From positions 1 to 30,865 of IMG/VR virus record IMGVR_UViG_3300047481_000781: a stretch of 30,865 nt of DNA; one strand, 5' to 3'. This stretch comes from a virus. The notes under the pieces were generated by a model, which ran no database searches, was not told where the DNA came from, and saw only the letters and a list, made by a program, of their open reading frames with translations. This document shows, piece after piece, positions 8,881 to 26,590 of this stretch. Numbering within the stretch: position 1 is the first letter of the stretch; every line of letters begins with the position of its first letter. Position numbers and translations under genes: made by a program.

Positions 8881-10131
8881 ATGGCATTAAGCAAACCTCA
8901 AGACACTATCTGCAGCAGCGACGCAAGGTTTAGAGTGGCGGTGACTGGCAGAAGATTTGGCAAAACCTATGTGGCCATTAGAGAACTGTCACGTGCAGCA
9001 GCACTGCCAGATCAAGAATGTCTATTTTTGGCACCCTCATACAGAATGGCCAAAAATTTAGTTTGGGATCAGCTCAAAGACAAATTAAAAAGTTTGCGTT
9101 GGGTGGATCAAACCAACGAAGCAGAATTGACCATCAGATTGAAATCAGGATCTAAAATCTATTTGAAAGGTGCTGAAAACAAAGATTCATTGAGGGGCGC
9201 AGGTTATGATTTTGTGGCCTTAGATGAGTTTCAAGACATGGATCCCACTGTGTGGACAGAAGTGCTGAGACCCACACTGTCTGACAAACAAGGCAAAGCA
9301 CTGTTCACAGGCACACCCAGAGGTGTGGGTTCATTCAGTTATGAAATGTACACCATGGCACAGAGCACCAAAGATTGGGCCAGTTTCAAATTCACCACAG
9401 CAGAAGGTGGCAATGTGAGTTTGGATGAAATTGAACAAGCACGCAGAGATTTGGATCTCAAAACATTTGAACAAGAGTATCACGCCACATTCAACACCTA
9501 TTCAGGCATGGTGTATTACAATTTCAGCAGAGAAGAAACCATCAAAAAAATTGATGTGAGTCACACACCAGAAATACATTGTGGCATTGACTTCAACGTG
9601 GATCCATTGAGTGTGGCAATCGCTGTGATTCAAAATCACAATATTTTATTCATAGATGAATTGGTAATGAAAGGCAGCAACACAGATGATGTGTGCGATG
9701 AATTAAAAAGACGTTATCCCACTGCAAGAATCATCATGTATCCAGATCCTGCCGGCAAGGCCAAACACACCGCATCAGGTGGAAGATCGGATCACAGCAT
9801 TTTGAGAAATGCAGGATTTCAAGTGAATGTGCGTCACGTTCACACTCCAGTGAGAGACCGAGTAAATTCTGTAAATAGTAAATTAAAGAACGCCAAAGGA
9901 ATACGCAGCATGTTCATTGATCCCAAGTGTCGTCAAATTATCAAAAGTTTAGAAAGACTCACATACAAAGAAGGCACATCAGTGATTCACAAGGATGGCG
10001 AACATGATCACATGGCAGATGCTGTGGGTTATCTCACAGATTTCATATATCCAATCAAACCAGAAATTAACACCAATCAACCCATGCGTTGGGCATTTGG
10101 TGGCACCACATCAACAGGGAGATCACAATAA
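8881..10131 (+). CDS. terL: Terminase large subunit (416 aa)
   Basis: This is the packaging motor ATPase and nuclease. The Walker A motif is VTGRRFGKT at about residues 22-30. Walker B is FVALDEFQDM at about 111-120, with the catalytic glutamate. The coupling motif is LFTGTPRG. The nuclease half starts with HCGIDFNVDPLSVAI (first metal-binding aspartate) and has later acidic sites, including MYPDPAGKAK and HDHMADAVGY near the C-terminus. The 416-aa length is normal for a compact terminase. The stop overlaps the portal start (TAATG), so the two genes are coupled. Confidence 0.93.
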   Translation: MALSKPQDTICSSDARFRVAVTGRRFGKTYVAIRELSRAAALPDQECLFLAPSYRMAKNLVWDQLKDKLKSLRWVDQTNEAELTIRLKSGSKIYLKGAENKDSLRGAGYDFVALDEFQDMDPTVWTEVLRPTLSDKQGKALFTGTPRGVGSFSYEMYTMAQSTKDWASFKFTTAEGGNVSLDEIEQARRDLDLKTFEQEYHATFNTYSGMVYYNFSREETIKKIDVSHTPEIHCGIDFNVDPLSVAIAVIQNHNILFIDELVMKGSNTDDVCDELKRRYPTARIIMYPDPAGKAKHTASGGRSDHSILRNAGFQVNVRHVHTPVRDRVNSVNSKLKNAKGIRSMFIDPKCRQIIKSLERLTYKEGTSVIHKDGEHDHMADAVGYLTDFIYPIKPEINTNQPMRWAFGGTTSTGRSQ

Positions 10132-13037: not shown

Positions 13038-14148
13038 ATGGCAGATGAAGCAACAGCGACGATTCTATCGGAATTGTACGCAAATATTGTGCAGTCAGCA
13101 ATCTACACGCTGTCTGAACAAACAGTAATAAGACCCCTTGTGGCCAATTATGATTTAAGCGGCACACCAGGATTAACAGCACAGATACCAATCTTCCCAG
13201 CGGTTTCTGCAATACCATTGACTGATGGCACTGATATCCCTTCGAACACAGCGTTCAACACCACAAAAGTTGACGTGACTTGTTCTGAAATCGGTGCCAT
13301 GATCAAATTGACTGACCTAGGCAGAGAATCAGCAGCACAAGATGTTGCGGTTGCTATCGGCAGACAATTGGGTGATGCAATGGCCAAAAAAGTTGACACT
13401 GATTTGGCAAATTTGTTCACTGGTTTCTCACAAACAGTGGGATCAGGCAACAATGAATTAACAGCAGACTTGTTCTTCAAAGCAGGTGCACTATTAAGAA
13501 ATGCACAAGCTCCTGGACCATATGTTGCTGTGATTCACCCCTACCAAGCGTATCAATTACGTAAGGTATTGACCAACGCAGGCAACAACGTGATTAACCA
13601 CAATCTATCAGATGTGGGCAATGAAGCGTTAAGATCTGGGTTCATTTCTACCATCAATGGAATCAGCATATTTGAATCCACTGTGGTGTCAGGCACTTCA
13701 GCTGGTGCATTTGTGGGAGCAGTAATGAGCTCACAAGCACTTGCTTATGTGTTGAAACGTTCTATGAGAATAGAAGAGCAAAGAGATGCGTTAAGAATCG
13801 TACGCAAAGGCGCATCTAAAAAATTCGGTGAATTGCTGGAACTCCCTTTTAGGGCAATCAGCAGCTTAATTTCAAACGTAGTTGGAGAAATCCAATCAGG
13901 GTTGAAAAAAGTTCAGAGACTAATCCTTGAGGAAACAATAATAGGAACACGAGCGCCGAACTACGCAACTGCGTAGATGATATAGTCCGACCTGTATGGT
14001 AACATACAGAAGTCAATTTTAAATGAATTGACGGTAACAAAATGCTTTAAGATCTACAGAATATGTGGGTTCTATGGCGTACGGTGTATCAGAATTGATC
14101 GACTCTTACGGAGTTAGATTGATTGCTGACGCAGCAGTGACCAACTAA
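13038..14148 (+). CDS. Major capsid protein, gene split by a group I intron (spliced 298 aa)
   Basis: Proposed coding join: 13038-13837 and 14052-14148, giving 298 residues. Exon 1 encodes the HK97-fold capsid body (MADEATATILSELYANIVQS at the start, LTDLGRESAAQDVAVAIGRQ, and HPYQAYQLRKVL in the middle). Exon 2 begins in the next codon position and encodes STEYVGSMAYGVSELIDSYG and onward, ending VTN. That is the standard closing strand of this capsid class (T-E-x-V-x-x-x-x-Y-G-V-x-E-L), which supports the splice. Without splicing the frame would run into intron sequence and stop at 13974-13976 after 46 foreign residues. The ribosome binding site is AAGGAG at 13026-13031. Confidence 0.85.
13838..14051 (+). 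ncRNA. Group I self-splicing intron (about 214 nt, no open reading frame)
   Basis: Visible secondary structure: P1 pairs exon end ATTGCT (13832-13837) with internal guide GGCAAT (13853-13858), with the terminal U-G pair at the 5' splice site. P5-like hairpin: 13882-13886 with 13891-13895 and a GAAA loop. P7: GACTA (13918-13922, in the R-type element GTTCAGAGACTA) with TAGTC (13983-13987, in a GATATAGTCC S-type element). P8: 13961-13966 with 13971-13976. P9: 13994-13998 with 14003-14007 and a GTAA loop. A further seven-pair hairpin at 14012-14018/14026-14032. The terminal G is 14051. P3 and P4 could not be assigned by eye. There is no endonuclease gene inside it. Confidence 0.88.
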
Positions 14149-25408: not shown

Positions 25409-25687
25409 ATGCCCATCAAAAAATTCTGTGAGAGGACACGCCGCCGAGGTGGCATCAAACGTCGTGGTTTAAAAAGCAAATACCTGCCAGACATCATCAC
25501 TCTGCAGCAGGCACACGAATGGCCCTGCTGTGCCAATTGCGACAACACCGAATACAGATTTAGAATGATCAAACCCAATGATCGTTACATGAATCTGCTC
25601 ACAGACGATTGGGCCTATGTGATGAATTGTGCTGTGTGCGGTTATGTGATCGGTCGCATCATGAAACCAGACACAGCAGTCGAATAA
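25409..25687 (+). CDS. Small zinc-ribbon-like protein (92 aa)
   Basis: The ATG at 25409 follows the fibre stop by four bases. Two cysteine pairs, CANC and CAVC, about 35 residues apart, suggest a zinc ribbon. The N-terminal part is very basic (ERTRRRGGIKRRGLKSK). No RBS is evident. Function unknown; nucleic-acid binding is plausible. Confidence 0.55.
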   Translation: MPIKKFCERTRRRGGIKRRGLKSKYLPDIITLQQAHEWPCCANCDNTEYRFRMIKPNDRYMNLLTDDWAYVMNCAVCGYVIGRIMKPDTAVE

Positions 25688-25695
25688 ACAATCAC

Positions 25696-25703
25696 CATAA
25701 ATA
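25696..25703 (+). promoter_or_regulatory. T4-type late promoter core (CATAAATA)
   Basis: No protein gene follows. The predicted start of transcription, six bases on (about 25709), falls at the first bases of a seven-pair stem. This strongly suggests that it transcribes a structured RNA. Confidence 0.6.
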
Positions 25704-25707
25704 TCGT

Positions 25708-25764
25708 GGGGCATCTTGGTTAGTAGGATAAGCTGTCACACGTCTCCCTGATGCCCTCTTTTTT
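25708..25764 (+). ncRNA. Candidate small structured RNA with a terminator-like end
   Basis: GGGCATC (25709-25715) pairs perfectly with GATGCCC (25750-25756), enclosing 34 bases. A run of six T (25759-25764) follows, like a rho-independent terminator. The 5' strand sits where the promoter at 25696 is predicted to start. The resulting RNA would be about 55 nt. The enclosed sequence begins TTGGTTAGTAGGATAAG and contains CTGTCAC, both faintly reminiscent of a tRNA D-arm and anticodon loop, but no T-arm exists. The fold is seen in the sequence; transcription is inference. Confidence 0.5.
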
Positions 25765-25765
25765 G

Positions 25766-26350
25766 GCAAACCTACCCGTTGCTCACAATCAAAAAATCTT
25801 ATAGTGTGTAATTGATTTGTTTTGGATCAACAAGTCATATGATGCTGAACAGCAGTGGGTTATACCAAGGTAGAAGAACATTGCTGTTCACAAATCACAC
25901 AGCATTGATCACATTCACATATATACACAGTAGGCAATAGTAGGCAAATCATACATTCTGACAACCAAACACACAAAGAGTTTAGATCACCCTCTAATTG
26001 ATCAGCTATGGTTGTGACGCGACACAGTTGGGCCAGGACTGTTGAAACAAATGGGCAGTGATGCAGAACGATTTTGGAAACTTTTGTCGTTCTGGTTTGC
26101 ACACCCAAATGGCAACTCACCTGCCGGTGTGTGAATGGAAGTGGTCTTCCTTGACAGGTTGGTAGGATATGCAAACCCTCTACCATAATAGATTGATGTT
26201 GTGAGTCTCTGCAGAGAATTCGAGCATTACGGTGCTAAAAGTTCTCTTGTTTCAAGGGCGAGGGAGGAGGGAGAAAGAAAACACGAACTTCTTGTAAAGA
26301 AGTGAGTAATACGAGCGTGAGCTCGTATTCAATGTGATCGCTCAGAATAA
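25766..26350 (+). ncRNA. Hairpin-rich region with no convincing protein gene, candidate large structured RNA
   Basis: Stems seen: 25846-25856 with 25880-25890 (11 pairs, one G-U); 26064-26071 with 26087-26094 (8 pairs); 26100-26105 with 26126-26131, stacked on 26111-26114 with 26122-26125; 26137-26141 with 26146-26150; 26160-26165 with 26180-26185; 26213-26218 with 26242-26247; 26287-26292 with 26298-26303; and 26308-26316 with 26321-26329 (9 perfect pairs, GTGA loop). No long open frame with the codon style of neighbouring genes is present on either strand. Large ornate phage RNAs such as GOLLD and ROOL are the known type of precedent. No family match was made. The boundaries are approximate. 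Confidence 0.45.
25929..25947 (+). repeat. Direct repeat of AGTAGGCAA
   Basis: Two copies of AGTAGGCAA (25929-25937 and 25939-25947) separated by one T, inside the hairpin-rich region. It may be an unpaired protein-binding segment or part of the RNA fold. Too short to interpret alone. Confidence 0.4.
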
Positions 26351-26356
26351 TCTCAC

Positions 26357-26386
26357 TTGACATCGGGGTCACAGTGATTGTATAAT
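26357..26386 (+). promoter_or_regulatory. Consensus sigma70-type promoter
   Basis: TTGACA (26357-26362) and TATAAT (26381-26386) match the bacterial housekeeping consensus at all twelve positions, with an 18-base spacer. Start of transcription is expected about 26392-26394, which is the A of the ATG at 26393. It is the only perfect host-like promoter I saw. An inverted repeat, TGATT (26375-26379) with AATCA (26384-26388), straddles the -10 element and could be an operator. Confidence 0.75.
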
Positions 26387-26392
26387 CAATAC

Positions 26393-26590
26393 ATGAGTAA
26401 AAAAATTCTGGATCACTCCGATTGTGAAATGATACTGCTGGAAAGAACCTACAACCCGCAAAATCGTTGGGACTTGAGATGTCGCACACATGGTGCCCAC
26501 ATCAAATGGTTGTCAGATCACACAGCACAGATCATTTGGGATCAGGTGGCACACTATCAGTTGCAAACCAAAAAAACTCGCTGGAGATAA
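26393..26590 (+). CDS. Small phage protein, probably leaderless early gene (65 aa)
   Basis: The start ATG at 26393 coincides with the predicted start of transcription of the consensus promoter. There is no ribosome binding site, so it would be translated as a leaderless mRNA. The sequence (MSKKILDHSDCEMILLERTY, then RWDLRCRTHGAHIKWLSDHT) has a C-x2-H turn and a W-L-S segment found in small phage proteins of unknown function. The frame could open 15 bases earlier at TTG, but that would lie within the promoter. Confidence 0.6.
   Translation: MSKKILDHSDCEMILLERTYNPQNRWDLRCRTHGAHIKWLSDHTAQIIWDQVAHYQLQTKKTRWR

Follow-up and report, generated by a model that had tools for sequence, protein, structure and literature searches.

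What does a small phage encode in an interval of some 700 bases that holds no protein gene? The window considered here, meaning the whole stretch of DNA analyzed and the frame for all coordinates, is an IMG/VR virus record of 30,865 bases from an uncultured aquatic phage, tailed and lambda-like in its tail, which carries genes for TerL (8881-10131), the portal, the major capsid protein, the tape measure and a J-type tail protein. The named phage closest to it is DSL-LC06, from Dishui Lake (62% in TerL), followed by the Pelagibacter phages HTVC111P/112P/202P/026P (46-47% in TerL). An earlier, sequence-only reading of this DNA had proposed that the interval lacks a protein gene and contains a large, ornate RNA, and we indeed see no convincing gene between the stop of a zinc-ribbon gene at 25,687 and a 65-aa gene at 26,393. 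The analysis below leaves us nearly certain that 25,708-26,331 on the plus strand, about 620 nt, is a structured noncoding RNA.

A protein-coding reading is excluded by stops in every sense frame of the core in all 13 homologues, together with indels among them whose lengths are not multiples of three. A 108-aa antisense frame (25860-26186) was also considered and rejected, as it is not preserved among the homologues. The stems, the direct repeat and the purine-rich stretch that had first drawn attention to the interval are all present in the sequence, with stems of 12, 9 and 8 pairs (Table 1), and the region folds strongly on the RNA strand (z -5.3, with 0 of 20 shuffles as strong) and more weakly on the opposite strand (z -3.6). 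Taken alone, the conserved core has a folding z near 0 in most homologues, with a minimum free energy no lower than that of shuffles. The density of hairpins is thus a weak argument, whereas the covariation that the same reading had suggested looking for is strong across the 13 sequences; because the folding energy of the core matches that of shuffles, it is by covariation and not by hairpin stability that the RNA is recognized. The GNRA loop noted on the 9-pair stem does exist in the window as GUGA, but it varies among homologues (UUUA, GCGA, UCUA and others), and it is another GNRA loop, inside GGAAAC at 26076-26081, that is conserved.

Homologues were collected in two ways. Protein searches with the neighboring genes turned up the same locus in two contigs, where the DNA is about 80-82% identical, and exact DNA patterns taken from the best-conserved stretches gave the others, with GTTTAGATCACCCTCTNATTGATCAGC leading to L016 and L017, TAGATTGATGNNGTGAGTCTC to L018 and L019, and AGGTTGNNNNNATATGCAAACCC to L020-L025. 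On inspection, 12 of 12 viral matches to AGGTTGNNNNNATATGCAAACCC were genuine; four matches in bacterial genomes were not and were discarded. The final set is the window plus 12 IMG/VR contigs (L014-L025), 13 sequences in all, most of the records being fragments. Scans of genome contigs returned nothing or chance matches only (L026-L029), and blastn against 50,697 phage records of GenBank gave no real match.

The core shared by all 13 sequences (window 25,983-26,189) was aligned, a covariance model (R1) was built and the sequences were realigned, with all members recovered at E<=1e-52. In the covariance-model alignment 96.2% of cells hold standard pairs, a figure that is inflated by the fitting of this alignment (A2) to the tested structure, and 25 of 35 pairs have changed on both sides. 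The covariation score was 0.599, compared with 0.181 for shuffles (0 of 500) and at most 0.098 when pairing partners were slid by one to three columns. When all column pairs were scanned in an alignment made from sequence without structure, exactly two covarying stacks emerged, P6 and P2, with zero false ones. Because gaps shift P4 and P5 out of place in the plain alignment of the 13 sequences, RNAalifold gave a poor fold there, and the covariance-model alignment was used instead. Overall, the conserved 3' domain lies at window ∼25,961-26,250 and comprises eight or more helices and a loop-junction pseudoknot, which compensatory change has preserved across the 13 contigs.

Table 1. Features of the RNA and of the promoter-like motif before it, in window coordinates
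Feature	Position	Strand	Arms and elements	Support
ATAAATA, late-promoter-like	25697-25703	+	just 5' of the RNA; expected transcript start roughly 25,708-25,710	
Variable 5' domain	25708-25930	+	8-pair stem 25708-25715/25750-25757 around GGUUAGUAGGAUAAGCUGUCAC; hairpin 25811-25830; 12-pair stem 25846-25857/25879-25890	
A-rich linker, AGGCA repeats	25931-25960	+	TAGGCAA at 25931 and 25941; joins 5' and 3' domains	
P1, encloses P2	25961-26015	+	25961-25966/26010-26015	open flank search, 12/12 homologues with sequence there
P2, conserved loop CCCUCnnAU	25985-26003	+	25985-25989/25999-26003	3/5 pairs changed on both sides; unbiased scan
P3	26024-26042	+	26024-26028/26038-26042	middle pair A-U, U-A or C-G; 13/13 paired
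P4, cap UUUG-GAAA-CUUU (GNRA within 26076-26081)	26065-26093	+	26065-26071/26087-26093	6/7 pairs changed on both sides; pairing in 100% of cells
P5 with inner P5a	26097-26135	+	P5 about 26097-26105/26126-26135; P5a 26111-26113/26123-26125	changed on both sides: P5 8/9, P5a 3/3
PK1, pseudoknot	26115-26206	+	P5a loop ACUCAC 26115-26120 with junction GUGAGU 26201-26206 (after P6)	covariation
P6, conserved AUAUGCAAACCC strand	26161-26184	+	26161-26165/26180-26184	4/6 pairs changed on both sides; unbiased scan
P7, then variable purine-rich tract 26259-26280	26213-26247	+	26213-26218/26242-26247	13/13
P8, hairpin	26287-26303	+	26287-26293/26297-26303	present in L014-L019; rebuilt in L019 as AAAACUUC/GAAGUUUU
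P9, terminal hairpin AAUACGAGC-GUGA-GCUCGUAUU	26308-26329	+	9-pair stem 26308-26316/26321-26329	GAGC/GCUC becomes GAAC/GUUC in L014, L015, L018

In the outer helices the sequence changes while the pairing is kept. The arms of P1 occur in five versions (ACAACC/GGUUGU, GUAUC/GAUAC, GUUAC/GUAAC, GCAAC/GUUGC and GUAAC/GUUAC), and those of P7 include GAGAACU/AGUUCUC, AGAAGAUU/AGUCUUCU and GAAGGCU/AGUCUUC. The same holds for the pseudoknot PK1, which reads ACUCAC/GUGAGU in the window, AUUCAC/GUGAAU in L022, GCACAC/GUGUGC in L023, GUCCAC/GUGGAC in L024, ACAACG/CGUUGU in both L021 and L025, and CAAGAG/UUCUUG in L020. With seven representatives held in register, 42 of 42 positions are paired, which is equaled by 2 of 5040 permutations, one of these being a swap of identical entries; the result is weaker (127 of 5040) when the arms are freely searched for each swap. 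The PK1 contact could lie within one chain. At the far end, P9 is a stable hairpin whose sequence varies between members and is likely the 3' end of the RNA; it lacks a U-run and so is no standard terminator.

Upstream of this constant domain the picture changes, and between phages the 5' domain is either exchanged for unrelated sequence or missing. The type found in the window recurs in L014 and L015 (∼77% identity); L016 and L017/L019, alike over their first 75 nt, and L020/L025 represent further types, as do others, and all are unrelated to that of the window save for a short 5' motif in L016/L017/L019. With only three related sequences of the window's type, the structure of its 5' domain is weakly tested. 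In the linker, which holds the direct repeat, two to three AGGC copies lie upstream of P2 in 12 of 12 homologues with sequence there, against a mean of 0.1-0.3 in mono-shuffles (for each homologue, 0-9 of 500 shuffles attain the count), and their spacing is exactly 10 nt in the window, L014, L015, L017, L019 and L021.

At the left end of the interval, where a late-promoter motif had been proposed, we find ATAAATA. There are 11 copies of this motif in the window compared with 2.74 expected, a fourfold excess reached in 0 of 100 shuffles, and they lie mostly in gaps before genes; the sites include 5662, 6806, 14215, 24922, 25697, 26590, 29007(-) and 30303(-). Such a motif is the late promoter of T4-type phages, and its placement here, in a small phage whose tail is lambda-like, resembles that arrangement. 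ATAAATA is also found upstream of the RNA in L014, L015, L016, L017, L019, L020, L023, L024 and L025. It is therefore plausible that the RNA stands behind a late promoter, and its position and the motif make expression late in infection probable. An extra copy lies directly before the linker in L016, L017 and L019, and the sole upstream copy in L023 is 258 nt before the anchor; given these placements the 3' domain could also be made alone and, should that single L023 copy be the promoter, there is possibly a short form of the RNA of about 430 nt.

The gene neighborhood bears on whether the RNA belongs to an adjacent message. No protein gene consistently adjoins it across the carriers: the flanking genes are both on the opposite strand in L020, L023, L024 and L025, as is the downstream one in L021. 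Because the neighbors differ and are often on the opposite strand, the RNA most likely has its own promoter, and we consider it very probable that it is an independent transcription unit. A cis-acting leader, or a 3' UTR of an adjacent mRNA, would accord with the 65-aa gene that follows on the same strand in the window, but a constant same-strand downstream gene of the kind expected for a leader is not found, the 65-aa gene is missing from L015, and in the window it has a promoter of its own downstream of the RNA; gene order thus largely refutes this reading, which we rate as highly improbable. The promoter in question (TTGACA-18-TATAAT, 26357-26386, plus strand) is a perfect sigma-70 site directly before the 65-aa gene, and similar sigma-70-like sites occur in L014 and L019. 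On the other side of the RNA, zinc-ribbon-like small genes lie directly upstream in the window (25412-25687), L016, L017 and L019, all siphovirus-type carriers; the window copy has no Pfam or PHROG match.

The carriers themselves fall into two lineages with unrelated portals, phrog_145 in six records (the window, G001, G010, G012, G048 and G049) and phrog_332 in four (G013, G050, G051 and G053), and the genomic position and neighbors of the RNA differ between them. Model R1 gave no match in any of 13 named phage genomes, among them DSL-LC06, Pelagibacter phages, Methylophilales phage MEP301, ICP1 and phage K. Of 46 further records surveyed, most of them relatives by terminase, 41 were without a match, and as nearly all of these records are fragments we make no claim of absence from the survey.

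Two further explanations were weighed. The packaging RNA of phi29 is a 174-nt, portal-bound RNA that, as a phage RNA forming homo-oligomers, offers a parallel, but no link to it in sequence, position or portal was seen for the new RNA. A similar packaging role at the portal/terminase would suit a promoter of the late type, and a conserved ∼150-aa gene of unassigned function downstream of the RNA in L016, L017 and L019 could encode a small terminase; against this, the RNA lies far from the packaging genes in the window and in other members, its carriers use two unrelated portals, and DSL-LC06, the HTVC phages and other phages close to it by TerL are without the RNA, so that we judge this role very unlikely. 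Still harder to credit is a self-splicing intron or other mobile ribozyme. The differing genome positions of the RNA, and a group I intron elsewhere in the same window, might suggest one, but the region has no Rfam group I/II match and interrupts no gene, and the scan does detect the real intron (RF00028, 87 bits, 13744-14009, plus strand), which overlaps the 3' end of the major capsid frame (13038-13976).

At roughly the same syntenic position, DSL-LC06 (L074, OR003941) has an unannotated gap of ∼720 nt (580-1300) that folds far beyond shuffles (z -5.75), with AGGCA occurring several times close to its beginning. It has no model match, a 9-bit R1 hit obtained with filters off having been dismissed because it extends into a coding gene, and the gap may hold a second large RNA family.

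We compared the RNA with catalogued families. An Rfam 15 search gave no match in the region, searching all of Rfam at gathering cut-offs gave nothing at 11 homologue loci, and a permissive search (E<=10) of four loci gave no GOLLD and no ROOL. At E<=10 the GOLLD model (RF02032) had no match in the 13 virus records or DSL-LC06, and the ROOL model (RF03087) had none in the records, in a search whose positive controls gave no match either. A kinship with GOLLD or ROOL, one of the options of the sequence-only reading, is hence unsupported, whereas its other suggestions, a large ornate RNA and a new class, gain support from the covariation and the Rfam result, respectively. A GOLLD or ROOL too diverged for the Rfam models to catch would account for an overall plan shared with GOLLD, of 3' and 5' domains, linker and loop-junction pairing (PMC12286853), but in view of the searches above it is improbable. 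As its pairing is conserved across 13 phages, which belong to two or more unrelated types, and it matches no catalogued family, this is probably a new class of large phage RNA, although a description outside the open-access literature could exist.

Other large RNAs offer looser parallels. ROOL is likewise a large structured noncoding phage RNA, without a model match here; OLE and raiA-type RNAs are also large, multi-helix and noncoding, but they are cellular and not phage-borne, and again gave no Rfam match. The ∼800-nt noncoding RNA of ICP1 and the long noncoding RNAs of phage K were compared by their finders to GOLLD/ROOL (PMC7567579, PMC9241854). They too are long phage transcripts, but model R1 gave no significant hit in either genome, with none in ICP1 and a best E of 2.25 in phage K.

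The closest overall plan is that of GOLLD, whose 3' region is universally conserved and whose 5' region is less so, and whose linker is unresolved or disordered inside the cage (PMC12286853). The new RNA matches it as a large phage RNA with a constant 3' region, conserved in 13 sequences, and a 5' region that is of several unrelated types or missing, with a loop-junction pairing supported by covariation (PK1) and with a linker between the domains, the AGGC linker here being likely unpaired. In GOLLD the loop-junction kissing contact turned out to be between chains (PMC12286853). The two also differ, in that the GOLLD model gives no match and that GOLLD often lies near tRNAs, whereas the window has no tRNA genes. 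GOLLD is a closed homo-14-mer cage and is expressed during lysis; for the new RNA, the ATAAATA motif is the sign that may point to late expression.

Because its plan is closest to that of GOLLD, GOLLD-like working is our leading mechanism. Late in infection, the RNA's own ATAAATA promoter would drive its transcription; the 3' domain would fold as a rigid module that contacts other copies, as in GOLLD and ROOL; the A-rich AGGCA linker would stay unpaired; the exchangeable 5' domain would contribute a phage-specific part; and several copies would assemble an RNA scaffold. Self-assembly of this kind, drawn by analogy, is tentative and somewhat less likely than not. No conserved self-complementary loop was identified among the 13 sequences, which counts against multimers. 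Nearly as likely is an RNA that acts in trans as a single chain, whether as part of a protein-RNA particle or as a decoy, binding a phage or host protein (for instance via the AGGCA repeats) or soaking up a defense or regulatory factor. Repeats ∼10 nt apart in a probably unpaired linker resemble repeated binding sites, unrelated carriers and changing 5' domains suit an accessory function, and raiA is a precedent for an RNA that is large yet monomeric (PMC12286853); on the other hand, no protein gene is consistently beside the RNA and it has no known partner, and we regard this alternative as possible but doubtful. On balance, the explanation we favor, with some reserve, is a stand-alone large structured noncoding RNA, probably made late and perhaps GOLLD/ROOL-like in its working. 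Speculatively, it might represent a third natural kind of RNA-only particle, a giant phage RNA of a new class unrelated to GOLLD/ROOL, made late, passing from one phage type to another unrelated one and exchanging the 5' domain while the 3' assembly module stays constant.

To our knowledge, very few structured RNAs of such great size have been described from phages. The hosts of the carriers may be identifiable, since the nearest named relatives of these phages infect abundant aquatic bacteria (Pelagibacter, Methylophilales), and the small carrier genomes, the two lineages and the possible short forms (∼430 nt) make this a compact system for studying such RNAs. If another family, independent of those known, shares the plan of constant 3' domain, swappable 5' domain and unpaired linker, this would suggest that such a plan has arisen repeatedly and is useful to phages.
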